IMG/VR virus record: IMGVR_UViG_3300023284_000512
Location: 1 to 21,277 of that record
Reading direction: 5' to 3' (one strand)
Source of the DNA: a virus
Length of the DNA: 21,277 bases
This document shows positions 1 to 21,277 of the stretch, one piece after another (position 1 is the first letter of the stretch; each line of letters begins with the position of its first letter). Both the position numbers and the translations under genes were made by a program. The notes beneath the pieces are model-generated. The model made no database searches and was not told the origin of the DNA. It worked only from the letters and a program-made list of their open reading frames with translations.

Positions 1-666
1 AGGAATAATAGGGTTATCGCTGATTCCGATTGTTGGATTTCCTGCGACTCCATCCCCATTTGCAATAGCGATTTCATTGGCATCAGGGGTTAGGGTCCTT
101 AAAGCCAGTGTCGCAGAATCGATCCTCGAAAGGATTCCTGTTCCGCCGGGGAGCGCTAAATCGAGATCAGTGATTCCTTCCACAATTTCAAGCGCAGTCC
201 CCGCTGCATCAATTCTGAAGAAAAAGAAAGGAGTTAGGGGGGCGGGGAGAATCCCGCTGAAAACTTCCGAAGATCCATCGGACTGTCTTAACGTTCTACC
301 CAGTTGATCCCTTAGTCTCTGAATGAGAATCACATTTCTGTCATGGGCTTTCTCAACTTCTTCAACTGGAAATTCTCCTGACTCCACATAATTATTTGGC
401 TGAAGTGCAGCCGGATCGTTAAGAATTACAAGGTCGTCCGTGGCAGGGGGAGCAACTAACATGGTCACAGTTCCGCCTGCAACTGCGTCCGCCCCCACTA
501 CTGTATAATTTGTAGTGAGAACTTGAAGAGTCTCAACTTGAGTAGTTCGATTAACAAGATTGACTACTAAATCCTCATCGGCAAGAAACCTAAAAGGAAA
601 TGCGAAAGCAGTTGTGACTCCATTTCCCGCAAAAGTTTTTCTGTTTCCATCACTTGATATAGTCAT
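1..666 (-). CDS. Tail fibre protein, N-terminal part (runs off left edge)
   Basis: The ATG at 666 opens a frame that stays open to base 1, giving the first 222 residues. A ribosome binding site (GGAGAG) lies just upstream, one base after the stop of the large ejection protein. Residues 10-120 look like the virion-attachment domain of T7 gp17-type tail fibres: an FAFPFRFL motif near residues 21-28, a beta-rich stretch (GGTVTMLVAPPA) and then a helical segment rich in E, K, R and Q (about 105-135). Near residues 204-215 is GDGVAGNPTIGI, a motif common at the base of phage fibre shafts. The fibre should attach to the tail and recognise the host surface; the receptor-binding end lies outside the window. 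Position after the gp16-like gene matches T7 order. The family call is confident, the receptor unknown. Confidence 0.85.
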   Translation of the reverse strand, partial: MTISSDGNRKTFAGNGVTTAFAFPFRFLADEDLVVNLVNRTTQVETLQVLTTNYTVVGADAVAGGTVTMLVAPPATDDLVILNDPAALQPNNYVESGEFPVEEVEKAHDRNVILIQRLRDQLGRTLRQSDGSSEVFSGILPAPLTPFFFFRIDAAGTALEIVEGITDLDLALPGGTGILSRIDSATLALRTLTPDANEIAIANGDGVAGNPTIGISDNPIIP

Positions 667-667
667 T

Positions 668-6287: not shown

Positions 6288-6715
6288 TACTTTACCCTCG
6301 CATATAACGAATAATCATTACCAAGCTGATCATAGCATCTTAAGGTTTCAGCTTCCAACTCAAAACCTAAAAGCCTCGCCCATCGATGCCCCTCTTTAAA
6401 ATCTTTCATCACTACCGCTTCAATTCTTTTAACCTGAGTTTCTTTTAGAAACTTCAGAACGGCTCTGTGAATTCCCATAAAATCTTTTCTACAACCATCT
6501 GCTAAAATCGCCCACGCTTCTCCACGATTTTCATAGTGCTCAACAATCCCAATACAGGCAATAACATTTTTACCGGATAGAACAGTATATGAATATCTGT
6601 TGTGCTGTAATTTTTTTCTTTGTTCATGAGTTATATATTCTCCAATCGGGGCCATCGTGGGCTGCTCACTAACCCGCTCAATATCGCCCGCAATAAATGG
6701 AACTACATCAATCAT
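6287..6715 (-). CDS. GNAT-fold-like protein in the T7 gp13 position
   Basis: 142 residues, starting with ATG in an ATGA overlap with the stop of the nozzle gene. The layout resembles a small acetyltransferase (GNAT) fold: an N-terminal strand (MIDVVPF), a strand pair around YSYTVLSGKNVIACIGIVEHY (residues about 42-62), a short stretch before a helix (GIHRAVLKFLKE), then KRIEAVVMKDFKEGHRWARLLGFE, which has the typical GNAT pattern of a strand, a charged helix and a 'LGF' turn (about 95-120). The classic acetyl-CoA P-loop (Q/R-x-x-G-x-G/A) is not clearly present, so catalysis is doubtful. T7 gp13 occupies the same place and is needed for virion morphogenesis. A structural or assembly role is the best inference. 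Confidence 0.7.
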   Translation of the reverse strand: MIDVVPFIAGDIERVSEQPTMAPIGEYITHEQRKKLQHNRYSYTVLSGKNVIACIGIVEHYENRGEAWAILADGCRKDFMGIHRAVLKFLKETQVKRIEAVVMKDFKEGHRWARLLGFELEAETLRCYDQLGNDYSLYARVK

Positions 6716-9255: not shown

Positions 9256-9257
9256 CG

Positions 9258-9866
9258 TTAAACCCCCGTAATCGAGAAGTGTCGATTGCCTTCAACCTCT
9301 CGGGCGGTTTCCCAAGTATCAATAGGGGGTTCTGCGGAAACGGTTTGAATCGCATTTCTTCTTCTAGCTTTTGCAAGAATTTTTTTAAGATCCCTCTCAA
9401 TCCCCACTTTCTTAGTGTTGGACTGAGTAATCACTTCCACAAGTTCGTTTGCTAGACTCATGGAAAGAGCTTCCCGAAAAAGGGAATCCATTAAATTTGC
9501 ATCGGTTATGTTTTTTACATACCGAATTTCTAGAGGGGCATCAAAGTCCGTTAGAATCTTCCGACCTTCAACAACATAGTCAATAGAATTAAAATTATCT
9601 TCCGGATAGTCATCGGCGATTCTTAAAAAATCAGCGGGGAGTTCAAAAGCATTCGCTCTGCCAAACTCCGGAGGCGTGGCGTCCGCAGCAAGTTGCGCTC
9701 TGCCAGTAGCGAAAGCCCACAAATGATCAGAAAGGAGCGCTTCTCTTACAGGATTGTAAGCGAGATTACATTGGCGTCCGTTTTTACTAGCTTCAGTTAA
9801 ACTAACTATTGCTTTAGCGCCTAACCTTTGAAGTGCGCGGTTACATATTTGAACTTCAGATGCCAT
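9258..9866 (-). CDS. Head-to-tail adaptor, T7 gp11-like (tail tubular protein A)
   Basis: 202 residues, close to T7 gp11 (196). It opens with SEVQICNRALQRLGAKAI and continues with an NLAYNPVREALLSDHLWAFA-type segment (about 33-53), then ELPADFLRI (about 74-82) and a helical C-terminal third (LFREALSMSLANELVEVIT). This set of motifs marks the gp11-like adaptor family, which forms the ring between portal and nozzle. It directly precedes the gp12-like gene, as in T7. A GGAGAT ribosome binding site precedes the ATG at 9866. Confident. Confidence 0.88.
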   Translation of the reverse strand: MASEVQICNRALQRLGAKAIVSLTEASKNGRQCNLAYNPVREALLSDHLWAFATGRAQLAADATPPEFGRANAFELPADFLRIADDYPEDNFNSIDYVVEGRKILTDFDAPLEIRYVKNITDANLMDSLFREALSMSLANELVEVITQSNTKKVGIERDLKKILAKARRRNAIQTVSAEPPIDTWETAREVEGNRHFSITGV

Positions 9867-9881
9867 TCGCGATCTCCAATT

Positions 9882-10196
9882 TTAGGTAGTTCTTTCAGTT
9901 GGAATCCTTATGGCTGATGCATGAACCGCTGTAGGGGTAGTCGATCCAGTTATCACCCCCCGGATTTGACCTGGAGGTAAATCAAAATTTCCATGGCCAT
10001 TGGCGGTTAAAGTGGTGTCATTATCGACGTCGACCCAGGTTCCTGTTTGGGGAGTTGTGGTTTGAAGTTTTACGGTGCCGCCGCCAAAACTGGTAGCACT
10101 GGCATAGAAAGAACCGCGCCCGCCGGGCCAAATAAATGAAGCCCCGTTTACGTCCGCAGCTTGATTGGTAAGAAGATCTAGTCTTTCGTCAGCCAT
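9882..10196 (-). CDS. Small beta-rich structural (decoration-type) protein
   Basis: 104 residues, predicted to be mainly beta strand, with alternating small and aromatic residues (FIWPGGRGSFYASATSF, GTVKLQTTTP, GTWVDVDND). No enzymatic motif is visible. It sits between the capsid cluster and the gp11-like adaptor with a good GGAGG ribosome binding site, and proteins of this composition here are usually minor virion or decoration proteins. I recognise the general pattern (a 'GGRG-x-F' and 'GTWVDV' beta protein) from other phage head operons, but it has no established name I can give. Function is inferred from composition and place. Confidence 0.65.
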   Translation of the reverse strand: MADERLDLLTNQAADVNGASFIWPGGRGSFYASATSFGGGTVKLQTTTPQTGTWVDVDNDTTLTANGHGNFDLPPGQIRGVITGSTTPTAVHASAIRIPTERTT

Positions 10197-10208
10197 TAAA
10201 GCCTCCTA

Positions 10209-10397
10209 TTAAGCTGGAGGGAAATCGCCTTTGAGAATGTGATTCTTGAACATATCAAGCGCCAAAAGGATCTCACTCTTTGTTAAATTCACAGCCAGAT
10301 CAAACGACACTTCGACATCCTTTGCGGGAGTAGTTGCCTGCTCCACAATGTCGAACTCTTGTTCGCCCCTATCTATTCCGTAAAAACGGTCTGCCAT
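10209..10397 (-). CDS. Small hypothetical protein in head operon
   Basis: A 62-residue gene with a GGAG ribosome binding site before its ATG. The N-terminal half is acidic (YGIDRGEQEFDIVEQ); the C-terminal half is an amphipathic helix (TKSEILLALDMFKNHIL). No cysteines, membrane segment or known motif. It is tightly spaced between two structural genes (14 nt and 12 nt gaps), so it is expressed with the virion genes. I do not recognise a family. It could be a small head or chaperone-type protein. Confidence 0.68.
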   Translation of the reverse strand: MADRFYGIDRGEQEFDIVEQATTPAKDVEVSFDLAVNLTKSEILLALDMFKNHILKGDFPPA

Positions 10398-10411
10398 TTA
10401 AACTCCAAACT

Positions 10412-10909
10412 TTAGATTACAAACTGCACGCTGATACTGATCGTTCCAGTAGCCGATCCGACAGTGATTGCAGTCAACGCAAGGTCGTAATCTTTAAAAG
10501 GGTCCGCAGAAAGTCCGAGAAGTTCCCAAATTCTTTTCTCATTATTGGCAATATCCAAAGCTTCATAAAGCGCGTGCAATGGAATGACACGAGCCACAGC
10601 CATTGTAATAGCATCCCCGAAAAGGTTGTCATCCACCACAGCCCCACCATTTTTGGCAGTGTCATAAAGACCCAAATTATAATCCGTTCCGGCAGTGATA
10701 GTATCATTCAAGATTTGAATATCCTTGATACGAGCACTTGAAGGGATTCTGGAAAATCTGTAGACAGAGAGATCGTCATCAGCAGCTAAAACTTCAACTG
10801 TTCCCACACTTTCACGAATCATCCCATTATCAAAATATGAACTATTGAGAACTGCGGGAGTCGCATCCTGATTGGTTATTGATGTTGATTTTGTATTGGC
10901 TATAGCCAT
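10412..10909 (-). CDS. Head decoration/minor structural protein next to capsid
   Basis: 165 residues, first gene after the major capsid. It begins with MAIANTKSTSITNQDATPAVLN, then RESVGTVEVLAADDDLSVYRF-type beta strands, a DYNLGLYDTAKNGG loop (about 77-90), a DDNLFGDAITM segment and a final YDLALTAITVGSATGTISISVQFV strand pair. This order (N-terminal 'STSITNxDATP', then 'GTVEV', then 'LYDTxKNGGAVVDD') recurs in phage proteins encoded just behind capsid genes, annotated only as structural. A decoration or stabilising role on the capsid is inferred. The AGGAGGAG ribosome binding site overlaps one arm of an inverted repeat that begins at the capsid stop codon, so its translation may depend on capsid translation. 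Confidence 0.75.
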   Translation of the reverse strand: MAIANTKSTSITNQDATPAVLNSSYFDNGMIRESVGTVEVLAADDDLSVYRFSRIPSSARIKDIQILNDTITAGTDYNLGLYDTAKNGGAVVDDNLFGDAITMAVARVIPLHALYEALDIANNEKRIWELLGLSADPFKDYDLALTAITVGSATGTISISVQFVI

Positions 10910-10919
10910 GGTAATCTCC

Positions 10920-10971
10920 TCCTAAAAAATGATACTCAAAACTTAGTCACTCAAAGTGCTGGCTTTTAGGA
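10920..10971 (-). promoter_or_regulatory. Inverted repeat joining capsid stop codon and next ribosome binding site
   Basis: On the transcribed strand TCCTAAAA (10971-10964) and TTTTAGGA (10927-10920) are perfect 8-base complements separated by 36 bases. The first arm contains the capsid stop TAA and the second overlaps the AGGAGGAG ribosome binding site of the decoration-type gene. If the stem forms in RNA it would hide that site until ribosomes reach the capsid stop. The long loop weakens the case. There is no T-run placed as in a terminator. Confidence 0.35.
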
Positions 10972-11853
10972 CTCAGCACACTTGATTTCCATAGTTTTCT
11001 TTTCCTCAAGTCTAGTAGCACCAGCACTCAAGATTATGTAAGCCTGCCATGGAAGTCCTCTAAGATCTTTTCTATGAGAAATATCTGTAACCATATCATT
11101 CCATAGTCCAACATGCATTCCACTCTGAGCCCATACTGGGACCCTACGGAAACTGTTACTGTCCGTGTTGATCCGCTCAGAATGTTTGAAAAAGATTCCG
11201 AGATATTTATCGATATTTCCATCAACAAGAACGGGTTTGGAATTGAAATCTGTGCTGATAATTTGAGCTTCGCCAAGAAGATCTTCTTCTTGGATAGCGG
11301 GTAGAGCACATCCAAGTCTGTCAATTTCAAAATCAACTTCATTGGCCTTGAGTAATCTACGCGCTCTTTTGAGTTTGGCAACGGTCATTCCAACGTTTCC
11401 ACTCGCGCCAAAATCTACAGCAACTTGATTTGATGCAGGAAAAATTGTGGTAACGGTTCCGGTTTCGCCAGTTTTGGCGTCGTCGAAAAAGGCATCGATG
11501 ATAATATCATCAATTTGTCTACCGGCTGCATATGCACCATTTAAAACATATTTGGATTCGGGATCGGTTAACATTTTGAGCTTATCAAAATGATCGATCA
11601 ATTGATTAAGATCGAAATCGGTTGGAAAAACCCATCTACGATCTGTAGGAGCATCAGTTCTTCCAATTGGTTGGAAACGTCCAGTGACTACACTCATTTC
11701 AACTGCGCCGAGTTGATCGACAGGAGATCCTTGCTTACCTACATAAAACGCATTTTCAACCAATCCACGAAGTTTAGAACCTCGTTGTTGAAGTAAAAGA
11801 ACCACGTTATTTGCAAATTGTTGGACATAATGGGTAGGCAGATTTACGGACAT
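10966..11853 (-). CDS. Major capsid protein
   Basis: 295 residues. The N-terminus SVNLPTHYVQQFANNVVLLLQQRGSKLR, the segment RWVFPTDFD-x-N-Q-LIDHFDKLKML and the later FKHSERI/WAQSGMHVGLWNDM region match a phage capsid family found in many podoviruses of Proteobacteria (the one I know as Phage_capsid_2). It should have the HK97-type fold and build the icosahedral shell. It lies directly after the scaffold gene. The long leader in front of it holds three TTGACT boxes, a small hairpin and a strong GGAGGATT ribosome binding site, consistent with high expression. Capsid identity is strong from sequence and position together. Confidence 0.88.
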   Translation of the reverse strand: MSVNLPTHYVQQFANNVVLLLQQRGSKLRGLVENAFYVGKQGSPVDQLGAVEMSVVTGRFQPIGRTDAPTDRRWVFPTDFDLNQLIDHFDKLKMLTDPESKYVLNGAYAAGRQIDDIIIDAFFDDAKTGETGTVTTIFPASNQVAVDFGASGNVGMTVAKLKRARRLLKANEVDFEIDRLGCALPAIQEEDLLGEAQIISTDFNSKPVLVDGNIDKYLGIFFKHSERINTDSNSFRRVPVWAQSGMHVGLWNDMVTDISHRKDLRGLPWQAYIILSAGATRLEEKKTMEIKCAES

Positions 11854-12037
11854 TTTAATCCTCCAAAAAACTTTTCAGTTTTCAAAGGGCTTCGTCCGTA
11901 TTCGGGGCCGCTTCTATCCAGATTCCCAAGGATGTGAGAGAGTCTATTCCTTCTAGTCAACCTGGCTCGATAGAGTTGTCAGGATTTAGTCAAGACCAGG
12001 ATAGAGTAAAAACTCCATCCAAGTCAAGAAAAACTTT
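11854..12037 (-). promoter_or_regulatory. Capsid gene leader with three tandem promoter-like TTGACT boxes
   Basis: This 184-base gap is the largest inside the structural genes and has no ORF. TTGACT occurs three times on the transcribed strand: 12027-12022, 11993-11988 and 11960-11955, stepping by 34 and 33 bases. The first is followed after 18 bases by TATCCT (12003-11998), a fair -35/-10 pair. The second is followed after 15 bases by TATCGA (11972-11967). The third has only TCACAT at 17 bases. CTCTATC follows the first two boxes. Best reading: one or two host-type promoters for capsid expression, or a repeated binding site. Confidence 0.55.
11867..11882 (-). promoter_or_regulatory. Small hairpin before capsid ribosome binding site
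   Basis: On the transcribed strand AAAACT GAAA AGTTTT forms a 6-base stem with a GNRA tetraloop. It ends 2 bases before the GGAGG ribosome binding site of the capsid gene. A 5' stem-loop in this place is known in T7 gene 10, where the leader favours stability and translation. It is A/T-rich and could be chance; the trailing TT is too short to make it a convincing terminator. Confidence 0.35.
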
Positions 12038-12904
12038 TTACACATCTGGATACGCCCATTTATGAAGGTTATCCCACTTCTCTTTAGCTTCAGCATTTCC
12101 CTTAGTTAGCGCGTTTCCAAACTCTGAATCTTTTTGCAATTCGATGATTTTCGCTCGCGCCTGCTCCGGAGTCAGACCGCTAAAATTACTGCCGCCTCCA
12201 TCGCTGCTAATATATTTATGTTCCCCAGTTTTAGATCCAATATTGTGAAAGAGTTTCATCACTCCATCAAATCCCATAACTTTTTGAAGCTGATCAATTT
12301 GGTCGCCGGATACGCCCAAGCCTAAAGCTGCTTGGCGGGCTAAGTTTAAATTTGTATCGTGAACGGAACCCCAATCTGCTTTGAGTGTTGCTTGCTGTTC
12401 TGTAACTACACCCGCAGCTTTATCCGTCTCCCCTTTGAGATGCTCTGTCGTGTATTCATTCCATTTATTCACAAGATTTTCGCCTTGAGTTTTGGAAAGT
12501 CCTAATTCATGGAACGTTCCGCCAGCCCACTTAAGAAACGATTCACTCGCGGGGTTTTGTTCTGTGGCTTTTATCCCATAACCTTCAGCAGTTTCAGGAC
12601 GCCCCATTTTATTGAAAACTTTTCCCCAGCCGTCTTTATCGTCGGAACGCTCCGGAAGCGCGACAAGTCTTTCTTGCGGAACCCCATGCAACTTCTCAAA
12701 ATTGCGATGACTTTCTAAAGCGACCGCAGGGCTTTCAAAATTTTTATTTGTTGCCCACGCTTTTGTTTCAGGGGTTAAACCTTCAAGAGTAGAAAACCAG
12801 GGAGTATCCGCGCCGCCTGCGCCTGCTCCCCCTGCACCTGCTCCACCTGCTCCACCTGCATCACCTGTTCCTGCGCCTGCTCCGGCGCCCGCTGCTTCAC
12901 TCAT
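12038..12904 (-). CDS. Capsid assembly (scaffolding) protein with Gly/Ala-rich N-terminus
   Basis: 288 residues from the ATG at 12904, chosen because GGGGGATG precedes it at good spacing; upstream ATGs lie inside the Bbp19-like gene. Residues 4-32 are almost pure Gly and Ala (GAGAGAGTGDAGGAGGAGAG). Then come WFSTLEGLTPETKAWATNKN and FESPAVALESHRNFEKLHGVP, the typical opening of scaffold proteins in podoviruses, followed by a helical, charged body and a short C-terminal helix (KEKWDNLHKWAYPDV). Scaffolds of this type guide procapsid assembly and then leave. Place between portal and capsid supports the call. It overlaps the previous gene by 8 nt. Confidence 0.83.
   Translation of the reverse strand: MSEAAGAGAGAGTGDAGGAGGAGAGGAGAGGADTPWFSTLEGLTPETKAWATNKNFESPAVALESHRNFEKLHGVPQERLVALPERSDDKDGWGKVFNKMGRPETAEGYGIKATEQNPASESFLKWAGGTFHELGLSKTQGENLVNKWNEYTTEHLKGETDKAAGVVTEQQATLKADWGSVHDTNLNLARQAALGLGVSGDQIDQLQKVMGFDGVMKLFHNIGSKTGEHKYISSDGGGSNFSGLTPEQARAKIIELQKDSEFGNALTKGNAEAKEKWDNLHKWAYPDV
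12810..12894 (-). repeat. Low-complexity Gly/Ala codon repeat
   Basis: On the plus strand this stretch is a run of imperfect 6 and 9 base units such as CCTGCACCTGCTCC, encoding the Gly/Ala tract of the scaffold N-terminus on the minus strand. Units vary at third codon positions, so the tract is not a recent perfect expansion. Such tracts vary in length between strains through slippage. Confidence 0.75.
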
Positions 12905-13190
12905 TTTCTTCATCCCCCTGTTGGTGTGTTGCTCTATACTTTGCATAGAGTTGATCAAATCCTAAATCTACATGTTCTAAAATCCGAAGATAAACCTCCC
13001 GCCGTCCTTCAAGAAGTGCGTGTGTTCTGGCATCCGGACTGTAAGTAGATTCTTTAGCGCGACAAAATCTTATAAGATCGTCCATCACTGTTTGAGCAAA
13101 TTGATTTTTGGCCTCAAACACACATTTGTATGCCATTTGTCGTTGGGCAAGTCCATCTTTTAAAACTTGTTCTGGAGTTCTCTCAATCAC
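12897..13190 (-). CDS. Bbp19-like phage protein
   Basis: 97 residues. The core, AYKCVFEAKNQFAQTVMDDLIRFCRAKESTYSPDARTHALLEGRREVYLRILEHV without its spacing, follows the pattern of the Bbp19 family: an N-terminal helix ending in a tandem 'F', then 'DL-x-R-F-C', then 'S-T/S-Y/F-x-P-D-A-R-x-x-A-L-x-E-G-R-R-E-V'. The family is named after a Bordetella phage BPP-1 gene and is encoded next to portal and scaffold genes in many podoviruses; its role is not established. Mostly helical and without cysteine motifs of note. The C-terminus is acidic (QQGDEENE) and overlaps the start of the scaffold gene. Confidence 0.75.
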   Translation of the reverse strand: MIERTPEQVLKDGLAQRQMAYKCVFEAKNQFAQTVMDDLIRFCRAKESTYSPDARTHALLEGRREVYLRILEHVDLGFDQLYAKYRATHQQGDEENE

Positions 13191-13201
13191 TTAAACTACT
13201 T

Positions 13202-14899
13202 TCACGATGCTACATTAGACACCGCATTTGTCATGGCTGCTGCACCTGGGGCTAGCGTCGCCGCTTGTTGAATTTGTTTATCTTGCGTTCTTTGATCCCG
13301 CAATCTCAATAAATCTTGAGGACTATTAAGCCAGGATATCGGAACTCCATGAATTGCCGCAATCTCTGGCATAATTATATCCCAATTAAAATGATCTAAA
13401 GGACTCATATCTCCCGTGATGTTTACAACGTCAAGTGCTGCTTGAACCGCTCGGAAAACTCCGGCAGCTTCTTCCGATCTCTGTGCTCTACTCAAAGGAG
13501 AATCATAGACAATATCAAAATCTTCAGGTTCGTTTCCTTCAAGAAGCGCAAGTGGAGGTGGGGGGATAATCCCCTGAGTAATCAAAATACTTAATTCACG
13601 TTCAATCAAAGGCCCCAGATATTCACTTTGCTGTCTACCAATAGTCGGAGCTAAAAGAATTCCTTTTTCTTTTGTTCGTTCCAAAACTTCAGTCGCAGTC
13701 ATAGTCGGAGTGTCAGTGAGAATTTGAAATAGATTTACAAGGAAGGTGTCGTTGATCAACTCCCTCTCATCATCCATCAAATCTTTTCCAATATCAATCC
13801 GTCCAACGGGAAGCGCATGAATAAGAGCGCGTCCTTGGGCGTTGACTCCCCCATAGTTCACTTTTCCTGGCATCAGAGAAAAGGAATCCACAACTCCATC
13901 ATCGTGAGCTAAAAGAACTGGATCGACCGCACGATGTCCTTGCTTTATCAAAGTTCGTTTCTGCTCGTTCAACATTTTTATAGCAGGTAAAACTTCCATG
14001 GCAGGAGAGCGCCCATAAAATTCATTAGCGGTTTGACGGTAGCGAGGAATCGCATAAGGAAAAGATCTGAAGCCCCCTTCTTCGACAAGCATTTTATTTT
14101 TTTCAGATATATAAAAAGATGCCCACGGCATTCCTCTAAAATCCATTCTTTCAAGATCAGGATCTAATCGGGGCAGCACTGCGTGGAGAAAGAAAAATTC
14201 TGCATCCGGATCTTTACCTTTAGCTGCCTGAACAATATCGCTAGGAAGATTTTCTTCGCCAAACTGATCAAGCGCTTGCCAAGCACTCAAGGGGAAATAC
14301 CTGTAAACAGTGTTCACAACCCCCTGATGATTTTCTCGTCCAAAAATTTCTCCAAGATGAATGTTTTTATAACGAGTGCCAAGTCCGCTCGTGTGAGGGT
14401 CAGTAAAAAGCCCGCCAGTTCCATAGGCGCCAAGACTTTGATAAACCATTTGATTTTGAGAAGCAAAATTTGCCTGCGGAGAATATCTAAATTTGAAAAG
14501 CGATCTGTTCGCGGTTTCCATCCAGAGTTTCACTTCCCGATCTTTATTTTTCTCTGGATTCGACGCTTGTAGTTTATGCCATATTCCATTTCTGGGAGTG
14601 AGGAGAGAATCCAAAATAGAAGAAAATTTATCCAGAGCGAGAGCCGCCGTGCTGTCCAAAACAAATTCAGTTTTCCGTCTGCCTTTACTGAAAAGATTCA
14701 CAGTAGATTTAGCTTGCGTAAACAAATCTCTATGGGAAGGAATTACACGTTTTGCAATTTGATCCCAATGATCTTCCCAGTTGGAACGAAGTTGCCGCCT
14801 CTTTTCAAAATCTCTCCAAATTTTAAGAGCTTTGGCGGACGCAGAACTGCTTTTTGTATTGACTGCTTCAGTAGTGGGATTTGGAAATTCTTTGGGCAT
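13202..14899 (-). CDS. Portal (head-to-tail connecting) protein, T7 gp8-like
   Basis: 565 residues, close to T7 gp8 (536). The pattern KIWRDFEKRRQLRSNWEDHW (about 26-45), then FVLDSTAALALDKFSSILDSLLTPRNGIW-type sequence (about 79-107), IPRYRQTANEFYGRSPAMEVLPAIKMLNE (about 283-311), a polar HRAVDPVLLAHDDG segment and PTMTATEVLERTKE is characteristic of the head-to-tail connecting protein family. Twelve copies should form the ring through which DNA is packaged and ejected. The gene sits 2 nt after the proline-rich small gene, downstream of the terminase. The start at 14899 has upstream AGGGAGC as ribosome binding site. Confident. Confidence 0.9.
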   Translation of the reverse strand: MPKEFPNPTTEAVNTKSSSASAKALKIWRDFEKRRQLRSNWEDHWDQIAKRVIPSHRDLFTQAKSTVNLFSKGRRKTEFVLDSTAALALDKFSSILDSLLTPRNGIWHKLQASNPEKNKDREVKLWMETANRSLFKFRYSPQANFASQNQMVYQSLGAYGTGGLFTDPHTSGLGTRYKNIHLGEIFGRENHQGVVNTVYRYFPLSAWQALDQFGEENLPSDIVQAAKGKDPDAEFFFLHAVLPRLDPDLERMDFRGMPWASFYISEKNKMLVEEGGFRSFPYAIPRYRQTANEFYGRSPAMEVLPAIKMLNEQKRTLIKQGHRAVDPVLLAHDDGVVDSFSLMPGKVNYGGVNAQGRALIHALPVGRIDIGKDLMDDERELINDTFLVNLFQILTDTPTMTATEVLERTKEKGILLAPTIGRQQSEYLGPLIERELSILITQGIIPPPPLALLEGNEPEDFDIVYDSPLSRAQRSEEAAGVFRAVQAALDVVNITGDMSPLDHFNWDIIMPEIAAIHGVPISWLNSPQDLLRLRDQRTQDKQIQQAATLAPGAAAMTNAVSNVAS

Positions 14900-14902
14900 G
14901 CT

Positions 14903-15130
14903 TTAGCTCCCTAAAAGAGCGCGACGAGCGACATTCGGATCGCCCGATACTCCTTGCCCTCCGGTCAAAAGTGTCGATGCCCGTCCGCGAATATTTCTCT
15001 GCGCAGCCTGTTCCCGTCTCAACGCTTCATTAGTAGCCGCGCGAACTGTAGGATCTTCCGACACCGGACTTGGAGGCGGAGGAGGCGGAGGTGCTGCTGG
15101 AGTTTCTGGCTTGCTAAATATAGCTCCCAT
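14903..15130 (-). CDS. Proline-rich small virion-type protein between terminase and portal
   Basis: 75 residues with an AAGGAG ribosome binding site. The N-terminus is short and apolar (MGAIFSKP), then a proline run (residues 12-21, nearly all Pro), an acidic/helical middle and a basic-to-Gly tail (RGRASTLLTGGQGVSGDPNVARRALLGS). The C-terminal pattern 'GRAST-L-x-TGGQG-x-x-G ... LLG' recurs in small proteins encoded between terminase and portal in many phages, usually annotated hypothetical. T7 has small virion proteins gp6.7 and gp7.3 with comparable layout near the portal, and an analogous virion role is my inference. Confidence 0.72.
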   Translation of the reverse strand: MGAIFSKPETPAAPPPPPPPSPVSEDPTVRAATNEALRREQAAQRNIRGRASTLLTGGQGVSGDPNVARRALLGS

Positions 15131-15214
15131 ACTCCTTAAGATGGATCAAAAATTGAAAAAAAGCAAATAAAAACTTCAACACTTGATTTTTCAGGGAATT
15201 CTAAGGTGTAGTTC

Positions 15215-16783
15215 TCAATCTGGAAACAAATCATAATCAATATCTTGCGCCACGTCTCTATTTGAATGACGAGAATTTCTACTGGCACGAAGATCTCTAT
15301 GAGCAATTCTTTTGGCAAAAGTAACCGCTAACGCATCCCCAAAATCTGGCGAGGGCAGGCCCCGTTTCTTCATATCTTTTTTAGATTCAAGTTTCTTGAC
15401 ATCCGAACCTTTAACGTAGTCATATTCAGGATTCACTAAATCATCTTCAAGTCTTTGCTGCCATTCCACACCTTCTTTTTCGGGGATACACCCGCCCTGT
15501 AACCACTCCTCCATATTGCCCCAGATTTCAGTGCGCTTATCTGCATATTGGGGTTTGTCACTTTTTCCCCCGAACCAAACTTCATGGACTTTGTATCTCA
15601 TCTCCCGAAGTCGATCTATAATTCCAGTTCCATTTCCTGCATCAACAAAAACTCCATCCGGATTATATTTATCAATAAGTTCCGCACATTTATTTGCAAC
15701 AAACATATTATCGCGGGATTTTAATTCCAGCGGGGCGATCACTCGTCCGTTTCTTCCTTGTCTAAAGAAAATAACTGTAGAATCATCTCCAAATCTAGCG
15801 GGGTCAACGCCCATGGCTAAACCTGCCCACTCATCTTTGATTAGTTCCCGTTGCTGTGCCTGCTCCACAATTTCACGACTGATAAACTGATTATCGCCTG
15901 TGCGCGGGAATTGCCCTTTGACTTCTATTCGGGCTTCGTCGCTGTCCTCCCCGTGCTTGGCGATAATTTTATTTAGAACTTTTATATCAGTTCCTTCAAC
16001 AGTTCTTGAATCCAAGTTTCGAGTCAGCCAAAACTGCCTGTGTTTATGAAAGCAATAATAGAAGGCGCCTGTATTTCTACGAGGATTTGAATATGTGATC
16101 CAGTATCTATGCAAAACAGGTTCGGTGAAAAAACCTTCCGTCACTGTCCATATAGGTTCGGGGATACCTGATGATTCATCAAAGTGAATAAGCATCCCCA
16201 AGGGATTATGTGCTCCCGCAAATGCGTCAGGGTTTTCTTCGCTCCATGTTTGAGCCAGAGAATAGTAATAAGTATCATCAATTTTAAGATCTTCTCTGAT
16301 AGCAGCCGCGAACCAAGCCGCCGGTCGGACGGACAGAGTTGCTTTATCAAACCAATGTCCGTTGATTGCAAGGGTAAGCCATTTTCCAACTTCTCCCCAA
16401 GTTTTAGTTTTAAGTTGACCTTCAGTGTTTGCAGTGGTGATCGCAGTCGATCCTATATGACAGCTTTGCATCCAATGATTTATCCAAGCCACGAGAGTTG
16501 ATTTTCCGATTCCCCGTCCAGATGCAGTTGCAGATTGATAAACTTCAGGAATCTCGCCCAGGATCATACGAGCTTGATTATCCTTTATATGTTGTTCAAT
16601 TCGTTCCAATTCTTCTCGTTGCCAAGCTCTCGGACCTTTGAAATATTCAAGTGGAGTGCCCGGTTTTCCCCACGGATAAACCATCATTACAAATGTCAAA
16701 GGAGAATTTGCGACGGCGGGGTCCCACAACTCTGTCATTAAGCGCTGTTCTTCTTGAGCGGAATATTTTTGAATTGATGGCAA
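15215..16783 (-). CDS. terL: Terminase large subunit (DNA packaging ATPase/nuclease)
   Basis: 522 residues with both domains of the packaging motor. The ATPase carries Walker A SGRGIGKST at residues 88-96 and a Walker B-like LIHFDE at 198-203, followed by an adenine/coupling region around 225-235 (YWITYSNPRR). The nuclease carries a first acidic strand MGVDPARFGDDST (Asp327), a second at FVDAGNGTG (Asp381) and a third at SPDFGDALAV (Asp480/Asp483), the expected RNase H-like triad. The protein powers DNA entry through the portal and cuts the concatemer. No small terminase is recognisable next to it. The upstream gene ends 11 nt before the ATG. High confidence. Confidence 0.95.
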   Translation of the reverse strand: MPSIQKYSAQEEQRLMTELWDPAVANSPLTFVMMVYPWGKPGTPLEYFKGPRAWQREELERIEQHIKDNQARMILGEIPEVYQSATASGRGIGKSTLVAWINHWMQSCHIGSTAITTANTEGQLKTKTWGEVGKWLTLAINGHWFDKATLSVRPAAWFAAAIREDLKIDDTYYYSLAQTWSEENPDAFAGAHNPLGMLIHFDESSGIPEPIWTVTEGFFTEPVLHRYWITYSNPRRNTGAFYYCFHKHRQFWLTRNLDSRTVEGTDIKVLNKIIAKHGEDSDEARIEVKGQFPRTGDNQFISREIVEQAQQRELIKDEWAGLAMGVDPARFGDDSTVIFFRQGRNGRVIAPLELKSRDNMFVANKCAELIDKYNPDGVFVDAGNGTGIIDRLREMRYKVHEVWFGGKSDKPQYADKRTEIWGNMEEWLQGGCIPEKEGVEWQQRLEDDLVNPEYDYVKGSDVKKLESKKDMKKRGLPSPDFGDALAVTFAKRIAHRDLRASRNSRHSNRDVAQDIDYDLFPD

Positions 16784-16794
16784 TTAATACTCCA

Positions 16795-17093: not shown

Positions 17094-18200
17094 TTAAGGA
17101 ACATCCAATTCAAAATCAATCGCATCCATATTAAGCATATCTCCGGTATGATCCGCGAATCCCGCAGCTTCAGAAGAATCCTCTATAGTGGGAAAAGTGC
17201 TCACATCTCCCATTCTCCACCAAGAAACTAGGGCAGCAGCTTTAGCGTGTTCATTTAAATCTGCCGGATTTCCTGCATTATAGAGGTTTGAAATATCCGT
17301 TGCGGTCAATGCAACATTAAATAGCGCGCATTCATCTAAATTTCCCGCAAATGGAGTGAGAGGGGCTCCACTAGTTAAGGCGGCGCCTATTGTTAAATCG
17401 GCTGTGGAATTATGAAGACTAGTAATTGCATCATCAACGACTTTAGTCACTGAAGTGTCTTCAACTCCGTTAATATAAAGTTTTAGAGTGTTAGCTCCCC
17501 AGGTAAATGCTATGTGCTTCCAATCACCAGTTAAAGCAGCTATACTTGAAATATAATTTTTTACGTGAGTCGGTCCAGCAGATCCATCATCTGATAAAAT
17601 CACTTGAAGTTTATCAGTAGAACCCCCCGAGTCCGACCTCATTCTCCACGATCTTTCAGCCGTTCCCGCATCCCAGTTAGCAAAAAAATTCGCATTAAGT
17701 TGGGCACTACCTTTAATCCAACAGGCTGCGGTCATCGCCGAGCCAAAATCAAAATCCATATGATCTGTGATTTTTACGTGATCGTTAACGCCATCAAAAC
17801 TAGTGGAGAATGAATTCGTAAATGGAAGCTCAGGAAAAAAAGTGGTTCTATCATCCCAAATTTGATCGTATTTACCGTCGTTAGCAAATTGAGTTATAGT
17901 TTCGTTGCCAACTATAGCAATTCTTTTAACTTGCCAAATCGCAGCCGATGTATCCGGCTCTACAGAATCTGTTCCAAAACTTCGCGTCCTACCTTCAAAG
18001 GATACCGTGCCGCTTCGCCTATCAACTCTTCTAGATATTCCGTCATCATCAATACCCACTGGAGGAGTCCCAGCTTCCCCGCCAACTCGCATCGCAGGAT
18101 TATTTCTTCCGCTAGGAAAAAATTGACCTTTTTGCAAACTCGTAATGAGTTGGGTATAAATATCGTCGCGATCTAAATCATCAGATTGAAATGTAGCCAC
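17094..18200 (-). CDS. LamG-domain fibre-like virion protein
   Basis: I start this 368-residue protein at the GTG at 18200, because AAGGGGG lies just upstream at good spacing; the longer ATG at 18284 lacks a clear ribosome binding site and would add a spurious signal-peptide-like segment. Residues 1-30 (MATFQSDDLDRDDIYTQLIT) resemble a short head- or tail-attachment leader. Residues about 129-310 are a concanavalin/LamG jelly roll: FSTSFDGVNDHVKI, AACWIKG, WKHIAFTW, LKLYINGVEDTS and the C-terminal FAGNLDECALFNVALTATDIS. Such domains bind sugars or ligands. It precedes the terminase and lies far from the tail fibre; it may be a head fibre or adhesin. Signal peptide not supported. Confidence 0.78.
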   Translation of the reverse strand: MATFQSDDLDRDDIYTQLITSLQKGQFFPSGRNNPAMRVGGEAGTPPVGIDDDGISRRVDRRSGTVSFEGRTRSFGTDSVEPDTSAAIWQVKRIAIVGNETITQFANDGKYDQIWDDRTTFFPELPFTNSFSTSFDGVNDHVKITDHMDFDFGSAMTAACWIKGSAQLNANFFANWDAGTAERSWRMRSDSGGSTDKLQVILSDDGSAGPTHVKNYISSIAALTGDWKHIAFTWGANTLKLYINGVEDTSVTKVVDDAITSLHNSTADLTIGAALTSGAPLTPFAGNLDECALFNVALTATDISNLYNAGNPADLNEHAKAAALVSWWRMGDVSTFPTIEDSSEAAGFADHTGDMLNMDAIDFELDVP

Positions 18201-18300
18201 GGAATCCCCCTTATTCAGGTATACAATCGAACAGCTTACAATGCAAAAAATAATTTTTACCAGATATTTATGTTTAGTTCGCATAAAATTATGTCTATGT
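18201..18300 (-). promoter_or_regulatory. Gap before LamG gene with weak promoter candidate
   Basis: About 100 bases between the small upstream gene and the LamG gene. TTGCAT (18246-18241) and TATACC (18223-18218), 17 bases apart, make a weak host-type promoter, just ahead of the AAGGGGG ribosome binding site. As the first gene of the structural run, the LamG gene is a plausible place for a late promoter. Match to consensus is poor. Confidence 0.22.
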
Positions 18301-18558
18301 TTAGGACTGCTTACGGATCTTGATTTCCGAATCTACTATCAATTCCGCCGTCTTTGCCATTTCGTGCAAAGGTATTTTAACGAGGAGGCGAGCATGGAAA
18401 AACTCCTCCATGGCCCGATAGGCGCAACTCATCGCCACAGAATTTTGTGCGCGCAGAGAATTGACCGGAATATTTGTGACCATGATTGTAAACTTATGAC
18501 CCTCTCTACTGAAACGCACATCGACATGGGCTTTTCTATTTTTCTTTTTACGATCCAA
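18301..18558 (-). CDS. Small basic hypothetical protein
   Basis: 85 residues if started at the TTG at 18558, which overlaps the preceding gene by 11 nt; a longer start at 18633 (TTG) is possible but would overlap that gene by 86 nt. Neither has a strong ribosome binding site, although a GGAGG sits between them. The N-terminus is Lys/Arg-rich (LDRKKKNRKAHVDVRFSREG), then strands (HKFTIMVTN) and helices (CAYRAMEEFFHARLLVK). No recognised motif. It closes the accessory block, and about 100 noncoding bases separate it from the LamG gene. Start site uncertain. Confidence 0.55.
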   Translation of the reverse strand: MDRKKKNRKAHVDVRFSREGHKFTIMVTNIPVNSLRAQNSVAMSCAYRAMEEFFHARLLVKIPLHEMAKTAELIVDSEIKIRKQS

Positions 18559-18754
18559 TTTCGATAAGTTTCCGATACTGCGCCTCCGTGAAAAACATTT
18601 TCTCAAAACCCCATTTATCATATTGGAGTTCAATATTCGCTATAAAGTTTTCCTGCCAATCCCCGTCCGCTCCCGCTTCAGCTTCTCGAAGAATTTCAGT
18701 GAAAGCAATTTCATCATTGAAAAAATCCGTAAGTCTTGAATCAAATAAACTCAT
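18548..18754 (-). CDS. Small phage protein with WxExF/FFTEAQ pattern
   Basis: 68 residues, acidic N-terminus (FNDEIAFTEILREAEAG), then DGDWQENFIANIELQYDKWGFEKMFFTEAQYRKL without a cysteine motif. The W-x-E-x-F-I-x-x-I-x-x-Q-Y-D/E-x-x-G-x-x-x-F-T/S-E-x-Q pattern is one I have seen in many small phage proteins and primase-region segments, always without known function. The start ATG is 1 nt after the stop of a micro-gene; an AAGGA about 12 bases upstream may serve. Expressed in the accessory run. Confidence 0.7.
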   Translation of the reverse strand: MSLFDSRLTDFFNDEIAFTEILREAEAGADGDWQENFIANIELQYDKWGFEKMFFTEAQYRKLIEIGS

Positions 18755-18755
18755 C

Positions 18756-18851
18756 TCAGAAAAGAATCCTTATAATGATGCAGTTGGATTTTAAACCTGG
18801 ACGGATTATATGCCCACGGCTTAAAAGTAAAATGAGCAAAAGATCCGTCAT
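18756..18851 (-). CDS. 31-residue micro-gene, hydrophobic N-terminus
   Basis: An ATGA overlap with the preceding micro-gene starts it, and the next ATG follows its stop by 1 nt. The product opens MTDLLLILLLSRGHI, a short hydrophobic stretch, followed by a basic segment (RPGLKSN) and a second hydrophobic end (CIIIRILF). It could be a minor membrane peptide or simply a translated spacer that couples the two neighbours. I see no family. The coupling overlaps favour translation, the short length and lack of own ribosome binding site argue against a firm call. Confidence 0.38.
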   Translation of the reverse strand: MTDLLLILLLSRGHIIRPGLKSNCIIIRILF

Positions 18852-18937
18852 ACTACAAACAATATTTTCAACGAGCCCAGCGCAATTAAAATTAAATACG
18901 CTATGACCAAATAGTCGCACCATTTATATTTAAACAT
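18848..18937 (-). CDS. 29-residue single-span membrane peptide
   Basis: Below usual length limits but with a strong GGGGGAGG ribosome binding site 5 bases before the ATG. The sequence begins MFKYKWCDYLVIAYLILIAL and continues with GSLKILFVV: a basic N-terminus and one hydrophobic helix of about 18-20 residues. Topology by the positive-inside rule puts the N-terminus inside. Membrane peptides of this size are known in phages as holin-like, antiholin-like or regulatory proteins; no direct evidence for one. It follows the nucleoside deoxyribosyltransferase-like gene by 24 nt and overlaps the next frame by ATGA. Confidence 0.55.
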   Translation of the reverse strand: MFKYKWCDYLVIAYLILIALGSLKILFVV

Positions 18938-18961
18938 TTTTCCTCCCCCGGTTCATTCTTC

Positions 18962-19417
18962 TCACAAATCAAATGGATGTAAAATTTCATGCGCTCTCCT
19001 TATATACGCCTCGCCACACCACTTCGCTAAATCGTCAAGCTCTGTAAAAATATTCGCTGTCATCCGGTGCATTGTTTCCGGATCTCCGTTGCCCAAAAAT
19101 ATCGCACACTTCTTCCCCATCCCACAAGCATATCCAAATTCAATGCCCGCAGAATTTCCACATGGAGTTACCATGACCAACGCTTCGGATCGGGTCAACG
19201 CATATAGATCTTCACTATAAGCCAGTTGAACATATCTGTGATTCAGAACTTTGCGATATGTCTTTGCATCCCAGTCCTTCCATTTCGGGTGAATTTGTTC
19301 CCAATGAAAAGTTTGCTGCGCCTTTTTAAAATCATAAACTTCAAAACCAGCGTCCCTGAGAAACTTTACCACGGTCGGCTGCAATAAATTTCTCCATGAG
19401 GATGCGACGTAGATCAT
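18962..19417 (-). CDS. Nucleoside 2-deoxyribosyltransferase-like protein
   Basis: 151 residues. The opening MIYVASSWRN, then a helix ending GFEVYDF, the conserved FHWEQIHPKWKDW (about 37-49), Y-x-x-x-L-N-H (about 54-60) and the strand/turn ALVMVTPCGNSAGIEFGYACGMGKK (about 79-103) match the deoxyribosyltransferase-like family common in phages. The Glu in GIEFG (residue 93) is in the catalytic Glu position. Family members exchange or cleave nucleoside glycosidic bonds; the phage branch is poorly characterised and could act on free nucleotides or signalling nucleotides. It overlaps the Acb2-like gene by ATGA. Substrate unknown. Confidence 0.78.
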   Translation of the reverse strand: MIYVASSWRNLLQPTVVKFLRDAGFEVYDFKKAQQTFHWEQIHPKWKDWDAKTYRKVLNHRYVQLAYSEDLYALTRSEALVMVTPCGNSAGIEFGYACGMGKKCAIFLGNGDPETMHRMTANIFTELDDLAKWCGEAYIRRAHEILHPFDL

Positions 19418-19620
19418 TTCGATCTATTATGGGAAATAGATTTCACGGCATACATACAGGACTCTTCCAATCTATCGAGAGCAAGTTCCAAATATTTTTC
19501 ATTCTGGGGATAGCCACGCTTTTGAATTTTAGCCGCAACTTCTTCATAGCTCGCCCGAATCCTTTTAATCGCATCCGCCTGATACTCATCTAATTTTACA
19601 AATTCAAATCTACCTGCCAT
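19414..19620 (-). CDS. Acb2/Tad1-like cyclic-nucleotide-sponge candidate (anti-CBASS)
   Basis: 68 residues from the ATG at 19620, chosen for the GAAGGAG ribosome binding site; the upstream in-frame start at 19686 lies in the previous gene. The product is a helical hairpin: a first helix LDEYQADAIKRIRASYEEVA (about 10-29), a short P-containing turn (KRGYPQN), then EKYLELALDRLEESCMYAVK (about 41-60) and a basic tail. The pattern (aliphatic/Q-rich helix with I-K-R-I-R, then A-L-x-x-L-E-E-x-x-M-x-A-V-K-x-I) resembles the Acb2/Tad1 hairpin family, whose members trap CBASS or Thoeris second messengers. This is family resemblance by eye; ligand and activity are inferred. Overlaps the deoxyribosyltransferase-like gene by 4 nt. 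Confidence 0.58.
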   Translation of the reverse strand: MAGRFEFVKLDEYQADAIKRIRASYEEVAAKIQKRGYPQNEKYLELALDRLEESCMYAVKSISHNRSK

Positions 19621-19621
19621 T

Positions 19622-19786
19622 TTAACTCTCCTTCTTTTCTTTAACCCACTTGCCACAAATGCAACACGCCCACTCTTTATCCCCATCCTTATTAGTGCGA
19701 TAATTTTCAGAGTTCTGAAATGGATACTGCATGTGATATTGCCACAAAGTTACTGTGTGAATTACAAACGCAATTAAAAAATACAT
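19622..19786 (-). CDS. Small membrane protein with Cys cluster
   Basis: 54 residues from the ATG at 19786, preceded by AAGGAGG at ideal spacing; a longer in-frame start at 19828 lies inside the upstream gene. Residues 1-17 (MYFLIAFVIHTVTLWQY) are a probable membrane anchor or signal-anchor. After a polar link come EWACCICGKWVKEKKES: a CC-x-C cluster in a basic C-terminus, which could bind metal with another cysteine source or dimer. No homologue recognised. One nt separates it from the stop of the preceding gene and from the Acb2-like start, so it is likely expressed with it. Confidence 0.65.
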   Translation of the reverse strand: MYFLIAFVIHTVTLWQYHMQYPFQNSENYRTNKDGDKEWACCICGKWVKEKKES

Positions 19787-19787
19787 A

Positions 19788-20108
19788 TTAGTCCTCCTTA
19801 ATTTTAAGTTCCAACTTCGCTTCGCCAACTACCTTCGGCTCTTTAAGCATACAAGTAAAAGATCCTGTCTGATAAAAAGATATCTCTCCGCTCTCGTCAC
19901 TTATTTTCATAGAAGATCTACAAACAACTTTGTGACCGGCGGAATAGGTATCGTGTGGACCGTGCCCAGTCCCTCCACCTTCAGTTAATGTCTGAACCAC
20001 AACCCAGTGGGCCGATCGATATCCTAAAATAATTTCTCCAAGAGCTTTGTGATACACTCTTTGATTTTGCGGCAACTCCAGAATGTCGCCAAATTTAACA
20101 AGGTCCAC
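19788..20108 (-). CDS. Hypothetical beta-rich protein (GGGTGHGPHD family)
   Basis: 106 residues from a GTG at 20108, chosen because GGGGGAAT lies just upstream and the longer frame would overlap the previous gene by 95 nt. Strand-rich, with SAHWVVVQTLTEGGGTGHGP (about 39-58), HDTYSAGHKVVC, then GEISFYQTGSFTCMLKEP. The GGGTGHGP/HD/Y-x-x-GH pattern followed by FYQTGxFT recurs in small phage proteins of unknown function, often near lysis or accessory genes. No catalytic residues can be assigned, though the histidines are candidates for metal binding. Overlap of 14 nt with the gene before it. Confidence 0.66.
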   Translation of the reverse strand: MDLVKFGDILELPQNQRVYHKALGEIILGYRSAHWVVVQTLTEGGGTGHGPHDTYSAGHKVVCRSSMKISDESGEISFYQTGSFTCMLKEPKVVGEAKLELKIKED

Positions 20109-20361
20109 TTTTATTCCCCCACTTTTTAATAAACGCTTCACCAAGTGACTGACAGCGACGGAATCGGAAGATATCCTTTTTGGCACCAAGATATCGGCAG
20201 TGACCCATCAAGCTGTGAAGATCAGCGCTCATTGTTTTTCCATTTAAAAATTCTTGGGCAGAGCGGGGATCGTCCGTTCCATTTTCCTGATTCAAATGAT
20301 TATAAATTTTAATCACCACAGTTAAAATATTATCTACATCCTGTTTCAGTTTCTTGAACAT
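20095..20361 (-). CDS. Hypothetical helical protein
   Basis: 88 residues. Starts MFKKLKQDVDNILTVVIKIYNHLNQ, an amphipathic helix, then a polar link (ENGTDDPRSAQ), a second helical part (MSADLHSLMGHCRYLGAKK) and a basic C-terminus. No motif known to me. The ATG lies in a GAGTGAGCTTTAAATG junction identical to the one at 20731-20716. Spaced 7 nt from the previous stop. The coding call rests on packing and start context. Confidence 0.6.
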   Translation of the reverse strand: MFKKLKQDVDNILTVVIKIYNHLNQENGTDDPRSAQEFLNGKTMSADLHSLMGHCRYLGAKKDIFRFRRCQSLGEAFIKKWGNKSGPC

Positions 20362-20374
20362 TTAAAGCTCACTC
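20359..20374 (-). repeat. 16-base junction repeat, copy 2
   Basis: GAGTGAGCTTTAAATG on the transcribed strand, identical to the copy at 20716-20731. It covers the end of one gene and the ATG of the next, with GAG/GTGAG as a weak ribosome binding site. Exact identity over 16 bases at two start sites 357 bases apart suggests a conserved junction or duplication. Confidence 0.6.
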
Positions 20375-20644
20375 AACTTTCTTATAAAACCATTCAAAAA
20401 CATGCTTCGGACATATATCTAAAAGCCCGTGCTCCTCCTTAATCACATAGTCACCTGGATAAGCTGCTACCACCGAAGTCGGTCTGTGAACTTCCATAGC
20501 AACGTAAGGAGTTCCAGAATTTTTAAATATAATGCCACCACTTTTTATAGCTTCAACAGCCCACACAGGATCTTCAATTTGGTCAGGGCCGCCCGTCCAC
20601 TTGAAGGCGTCGATAATTTCAAATTTTTTTCGCCATTTCTGCAT
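20369..20644 (-). CDS. Phage protein of the KWRKKFEIIDAFKWTG type
   Basis: 91 residues from the ATG at 20644, in a TAATG overlap with the micro-gene; an alternative TTG at 20659 adds five residues and would overlap it more. MQKWRKKFEIIDAFKWTGGP (1-20) is the opening of a very common phage family, with later VYDPVWAVEA-like, GTPYVAMEV, AYPGDYVIKEEHGLLDICP-like segments (about 65-85) that end in 'W-F-Y-K-K-V'. The family is compact, beta-rich and of unknown role; it is found next to accessory genes. Good family match, function unknown. Confidence 0.78.
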   Translation of the reverse strand: MQKWRKKFEIIDAFKWTGGPDQIEDPVWAVEAIKSGGIIFKNSGTPYVAMEVHRPTSVVAAYPGDYVIKEEHGLLDICPKHVFEWFYKKVE

Positions 20645-20718
20645 TAGGTAATCCGCCAAACTATGAGAGCGACTAACGCTATTAAAGAAATGAGAGAAGC
20701 AGCTTCAGGCCAACTCAT
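20644..20718 (-). CDS. 24-residue membrane micro-peptide
   Basis: Directly after the preceding stop (TAA ATG) and ending in a TAATG overlap with the next gene. Sequence MSWPEAASLISLIALVALIVW plus RIT: one hydrophobic helix (about residues 6-21) with a polar N-terminus and one Arg at the end. Junction packing on both sides strongly suggests translation. Possible roles include membrane anchoring of a partner or a small toxin/holin-like effect, none testable from sequence alone. It starts in one copy of the 16-base GAGTGAGCTTTAAATG repeat. Confidence 0.55.
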   Translation of the reverse strand: MSWPEAASLISLIALVALIVWRIT

Positions 20719-20731
20719 TTAAAGCTCACTC
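20716..20731 (-). repeat. 16-base junction repeat, copy 1
   Basis: GAGTGAGCTTTAAATG on the transcribed strand, covering the last codons and stop of the first accessory gene and the ATG of the membrane micro-gene. Identical to the copy at 20359-20374. Confidence 0.6.
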
Positions 20732-21090
20732 GGTTCACAATCGGGAGTAGTATTGTTAACTTCTTTTTCTAAATACTCAGCGTGCATTGATAAAACGGAA
20801 CCCAAACTCTCACTCGCGCAACAATTGCCGCCCCTTCCACTTCGATGGAGATCAATCAAACCTTCAACCAAATTTATTTTCTCCGCCTGATTCTGACATC
20901 GAGTAGTAAGAGTATCGAGTTTTTTAGAAGCGTATTCCAAATCACGACTTAATCGAATTGCGAAAGAGTGGGGCAGTTTAATAGATGGCAGCGGCTCGCC
21001 CGTGCCTTTTGCTTTAGTCATCCCCGATTCATTATTCATTTGATTCTCCCTTTTCTCTGCTTCGATCATCGCGTTCTCTATAGCGCCCAT
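20719..21090 (-). CDS. Hypothetical coiled-coil-like protein
   Basis: 123 residues from the ATG at 21090, chosen for the AGGGAGAAAAATT ribosome binding site; the longer in-frame start at 21180 would cover the putative promoter. N-terminal helix (AIENAMIEAEKRENQM), a Gly/Pro-rich link, SFAIRLSRDLEYASKKLDTLTTR (about 50-72) with coiled-coil character, Gly/Cys turn (SGRGGNCC) and a second helix. No recognised family. It is the first gene of the accessory run in this window. Confidence 0.66.
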   Translation of the reverse strand: MGAIENAMIEAEKRENQMNNESGMTKAKGTGEPLPSIKLPHSFAIRLSRDLEYASKKLDTLTTRCQNQAEKINLVEGLIDLHRSGRGGNCCASESLGSVLSMHAEYLEKEVNNTTPDCEPSEL

Positions 21091-21277
21091 AATTTTTCTC
21101 CCTGTTAGATTTAGTGAGCTTTTATATGCTGAGTGAGCTGTTGGCAAGCATATTTTGAACTGTGGCCTTAAACGCCACATATTTCAGGAAATTTTTTATA
21201 TCAGCCGCTCGGGGGCTCACGAATACGTGAAGCCGTCGTAAATCCGGGGGCGCCCCGTCCCCCTACCCGGTATATTT
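21091..21277 (-). promoter_or_regulatory. Noncoding right edge with promoter candidate and repeats
   Basis: No gene seen. TTGCCA (21148-21143) and TATAAA (21127-21122), with 15 bases between, make a candidate promoter on the transcribed strand for the accessory run. AGCTCACT occurs twice (21139-21132 and 21120-21113), once in the spacer and once just after the -10, as an operator pair might. Further upstream are a 6-base hairpin TGTGGC-N7-GCCACA (21179-21161), a hairpin GGCTTCACG-TATT-CGTGAGCC with one bulged base (21234-21214) and a GC-rich stretch with the palindrome GGGGCGCCCC (21256-21247). None has the T-run of an intrinsic terminator. Confidence 0.4.

Follow-up and report, generated by a model that had tools for sequence, protein, structure and literature searches.

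The question raised by the locus described here is whether a small phage gene encodes a protein that protects the infecting phage by sequestering the nucleotide signals of host defence. The window, i.e., the whole stretch of DNA that was analysed, is a 21,277-base virus record from an uncultured, podovirus-like phage, whose gene content includes internal virion proteins, a head-tail adaptor, tail proteins, a major head protein, and a terminase. A sequence-only reading of this DNA had proposed that a gene for a 68-residue product encodes a cyclic nucleotide sponge of the Acb2/Tad1 type. The open reading frame and its length were borne out, and the strand, which that reading did not give, is the minus strand (Table 1).

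Table 1. Positions of the features discussed, in window coordinates.
Feature	Position	Strand	Evidence
Terminase large subunit	15215-16783	minus	phrog_2, 6.7e-35; 95% identical to that of sister phage L002
Accessory small-gene cassette, 2.6 kb	18548-21109	minus	replaced wholesale in L002 (blastn)
151-aa nucleoside 2-deoxyribosyltransferase-like (NDT-like) protein	18962-19417	minus	phrog_12607, 7.1e-35; PCGxSAxxE motif
Candidate Acb2/Tad1 hairpin-domain gene	19414-19620	minus	PF24729; phrog_1454; own profile and shuffles; AF2 hairpin
Shine-Dalgarno AAGGAG	19628-19633	minus	read in sequence; 7 nt upstream of the hairpin-gene ATG

The gene is intact, with an ATG start and a TGA stop, and its 68-aa product (hereafter the hairpin protein) has the full sequence MAGRFEFVKLDEYQADAIKRIRASYEEVAAKIQKRGYPQNEKYLELALDRLEESCMYAVKSISHNRSK, of which ALDRLEESCMYAVKSIS represents residues 47-63. 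An alternative start at 19686, which gives the 90-aa frame in the mechanically generated list of reading frames, was dropped in favour of the start at 19620, because a strong ribosome-binding site is suitably spaced from the latter. According to the coordinates, the stop codon of the hairpin gene shares four nucleotides (ATGA) with the start of the NDT-like gene; translation of the two genes is thus probably coupled. The PCGxSAxxE motif of the NDT-like protein is retained, as it is in its relatives.

The profile search that the sequence-only reading had proposed as a check yielded a match: PF24729 (Acb2_Tad1_hairpin) aligned with the hairpin protein over profile positions 5-56 of 58, with a score of 32.7 bits (E 8.4e-8) against a curated gathering cut-off of 27 bits, and with 31.9 bits when the whole record was searched. 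The best PHROG was phrog_1454, a family of unknown function (1.8e-5). A separate profile, made from 14 family members with the hairpin protein left out, gave 46.6 bits for this protein and 11.2 for the top of 5,000 composition-matched shuffles, and a profile made from named-phage members alone gave 23.7 versus 12.1 for shuffles. When the window was searched with our own profile, unrelated frames all scored 5 bits or less. PF24729 was not promiscuous: at E <= 1e-4 it matched only 7 genomes out of 385 sampled from one bacterial class and a single genome out of 392 sampled from one bacterial phylum, each sample including its centre genome, which had been picked for having a PF24729 match. A subfamily profile of eight sequences, the hairpin protein itself among them, found 9ptq ('Acb2 homolog 43') as the best PDB entry (7.4e-6), followed by Tad1 (~1e-3). 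The single sequence returned only noise from the PDB with phmmer, and neither PADLOC nor NCBIfam matched the hairpin protein.

Relatives of the hairpin protein surfaced only with an alignment as the query, and scanning viral and genome contigs with the single sequence gave nothing. The alignment query found seven viral loci (L102-L108) at 31-40% identity to the hairpin protein, and a second round extended these to fourteen. Six first-round relatives were scored with PF24729, and all were members, at 38.6-61.4 bits. One of the seven, L102, is a clear bridge to the family: its segments SRFDSVKITEEQ...LALTKLEESAMWATKAISKN correspond to GRFEFVKLDEYQ...LALDRLEESCMYAVKSISHN of the hairpin protein. 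A close ortholog was not found in the searched collections, and ten very diverse family members, once aligned, shared too little local conservation for any stretch to serve as a search query. Among 49 related records searched, chosen as terminase or NDT relatives, only 2 had PF24729 over the cut-off. Most of the stand-alone proteins recovered in this analysis have 62-77 aa; StellaBean gp101, a relative that at 65 aa falls in the length class of the hairpin protein, carries the annotation 'cyclic nucleotide sequestering protein'. The earlier description of the product as shorter than typical members was therefore wrong; greater lengths are seen in T4 Vs.4 (88 aa), in a few proteins that bear tails or are extended at the N-terminus, and in Tad1, with its additional domain. 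At one further locus (L118, 821-1456), a 211-aa open frame begins with the hairpin domain and continues as a long unassigned C-terminal extension, and may represent a fusion.

The compact helical hairpin suggested by the sequence-only reading was also predicted by AF2. From the eight-sequence alignment, two anti-parallel helices were modelled at residues 12-35 and 41-63, with a mean pLDDT of 81 and a pTM of 0.61; the model from the single sequence was weaker (pLDDT 72.7), and Foldseek returned no significant match for it. Foldseek with the eight-sequence model likewise gave no significant match (E above 1). In VIA-align, the Acb2 entries 7uq2, 8h2x, and 8h2j took ranks 1-3 of 164 chains, with Z scores of 7.7, 7.2, and 7.1, rmsd values of 3.1-3.7, and 65-67 of the 68 residues aligned. 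Because the next, unrelated chain reached Z 6.8, this ranking is within the noise for helical hairpins and supports, rather than proves, an Acb2 fold. On the basis of the Pfam match over the curated cut-off, the intermediate relatives, and the predicted fold, the 68-aa protein almost certainly belongs to the Acb2/Tad1 hairpin family, as a divergent member; the likeness claimed by the sequence-only reading is thereby sustained. An unrelated small helical hairpin, such as a phage regulator or structural factor, could have acquired its Acb2 likeness by chance, since helical hairpins are common, the structural matches lie within noise, and tblastn of the hairpin protein against named phages and plasmids revealed no relative. 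This explanation was already disfavoured, and is highly improbable against a curated Pfam match, the wide margin above shuffles, and 40%-identity sequence bridges to clear family members.

The hairpin protein was compared with positions mapped in T4 Vs.4, in which the base-stacking residues are Y8 and F82, hydrogen bonds and salt bridges are provided by Y8, H11, K23, and R79, and the hexamer interface consists of L29, A66, A73, and A77 (PMC10097602). The ligand positions Y8, H11, K23, R79, and F82 correspond to F7, L10, R22, K60, and S63 of the hairpin protein, so that an aromatic residue at the Y8 position and basic residues at the K23 and R79 positions are retained, and the Y8-to-K23 spacing of 15 is exact. 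Lysine is the commonest state at the R79 position (19 of 32). The His at H11 and the Phe at F82 occur in Vs.4 alone among aligned members, which makes them traits of Vs.4 and not of the family, and hence, L10 and S63 are uninformative. The interface positions are occupied by V28, A47, S54, and A58, all small or hydrophobic, and each of these replacements is found in other family members as well.

Most of the mapped ligand and interface positions are retained, and this, taken with the family match and the predicted hairpin, supports reading the protein as a divergent stand-alone Acb2-type cyclic-nucleotide sponge directed against CBASS-type signalling, to which we assign a probability of roughly 0.7. 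The role against CBASS or Thoeris that the sequence-only reading attributed to this family is thereby supported in part. By analogy with T4 Vs.4/Acb2, six copies would assemble into a compact hexamer, at whose head-to-head dimer interfaces F7 would stack on the bases while R22 and K60 would contact a cyclic dinucleotide. The alarm nucleotide of the host CBASS or a related system would be bound without cleavage and so kept from its effector, and infection would consequently not be aborted by the cell.

The hairpin protein differs from its relatives at several positions, of which the first named here is the most striking. The near-invariant helix-2 Thr (Vs.4 T68), which is conserved in 30 of 32 relatives but is no formal criterion of the PF24729 family, is replaced by Asp49; the Arg found seven residues before it in 28 of 33 rows becomes Lys42, given a gap-free alignment of helix 2; the turn has a two-residue insertion; and the Trp at the Vs.4 W76 position is Tyr. 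Asp49, together with the reported weakening of T4 Acb2 binding by a T68M substitution (PMC12657230), counts against the sponge reading. Within that reading, Asp49, Lys42, and the longer turn suggest a ligand preference other than that of the best-studied members.

As an alternative, a true family member that keeps its fold and oligomer may, through Asp49 and the altered turn, sequester another small molecule or be inactive; we regard this as unlikely, as the equivalents of Y8, K23, and R79 are still aromatic, basic, and basic, with the Y8-K23 spacing unchanged, and the gene is intact and has a strong ribosome-binding site. A more specific proposal, which we put forward only tentatively, is that Asp49, Lys42, and the longer turn reshape the ligand site to capture another alarm nucleotide, and that the cassette is a place where a module for sequestering (the hairpin protein) and a module for degradation (a DHH phosphoesterase) are swapped between sister phages. 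It is very doubtful that the hairpin protein is instead a partner of the overlapping NDT-like enzyme in nucleotide metabolism, with no part in counter-defence. The four-nucleotide overlap and the intact PCGxSAxxE motif would fit such a role, but PF24729 matched none of the records that hold the closest NDT relatives (L082-L087), and no NDT match was seen at the hairpin loci L102-L122; a conserved hairpin-NDT gene pair was rejected on these grounds.

The nearest relative of this phage is the sister phage L002, with DNA 89.6% identical over window 6394-16786 in addition to the similarity of the terminases. In blastn, L002 aligned with both flanks of the accessory cassette, at 17860-18547 (74.5%) and 21110-21277 (82.8%); nothing in L002 matched the interior, in place of which it has a different block at its positions 459-3436. 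Since the flanks align and the interior does not, the hairpin gene sits in a swappable accessory cassette. The L002 block encodes a DHH-DHHA1 phosphoesterase, a deoxyribosyltransferase-like protein, and an NrdR-like zinc-ribbon protein. DHH-family enzymes could in principle degrade nucleotide signals. Such a swappable cassette fits a counter-defence locus. The suggestion of an anti-defence island is supported only in part: the gene lies in this cassette, but none of its neighbours there was a recognised anti-defence gene in Pfam, PHROG, PADLOC, or NCBIfam.

Several further observations were made on these two phages. The L002 phosphoesterase (1022-1831; phrog_4771, 4.6e-78) could have short or cyclic nucleotides as substrates. 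A protein of the NDT superfamily is encoded in both cassettes (at 18962-19417 in the window and 2309-2701 in L002); the two belong to different subfamilies, and PCGxSAxxE is present in the window copy only. The N-terminal part of the L002 product of 3053-3448 is an NrdR-like zinc ribbon, and the stretch after it resembles a helix-turn-helix; an ATP-cone match was not listed. Beside the terminase gene of the window, a 396-aa protein (17094-18284) matches virion structural families and is only 42% identical to its L002 counterpart, in contrast to an identity of ~90% for the DNA from the terminase onward.

The hairpin protein is a new, divergent member of an already known family, the Acb2/Tad1 hairpin family, which now reaches a podovirus lineage without a similar record in the searched named-phage collection. 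The natural Thr-to-Asp replacement at a near-invariant position offers a ready test of the role of this residue in ligand choice, and the cassette swap relative to a phage with a 95%-identical terminase marks out a site at which additional counter-defence genes may be sought.

Among known systems, T4 Vs.4/Acb2 (7uq2) shares with the hairpin protein the two-helix hairpin, the aromatic residue at the Y8 position, the basic residues at the K23 and R79 positions, the Y8-K23 spacing, and a small or hydrophobic interface; it differs in being 88 rather than 68 aa long, with a long turn insertion, and in F82, H11, and T68, which become Ser63, Leu10, and Asp49, at an overall identity of ~14%. Acb2 homolog 43 (9ptq), the solved sequence nearest to our subfamily profile, and the short members from actinophages, StellaBean gp101 among them, are likewise single hairpin domains, in the 65-76 aa class, but they carry an REK...T motif in helix 2, where the hairpin protein has K42 and D49 in place of Arg and Thr. 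Tad1 (7uav, 8kbb) has the helix-2 motif of the hairpin domain in common with it, and differs by an N-terminal beta-sheet part and a length of about 125-140 aa, whereas two helices only were predicted by AF2 for the hairpin protein; because it does not have this N-terminal part, the hairpin protein is Acb2-like in architecture.
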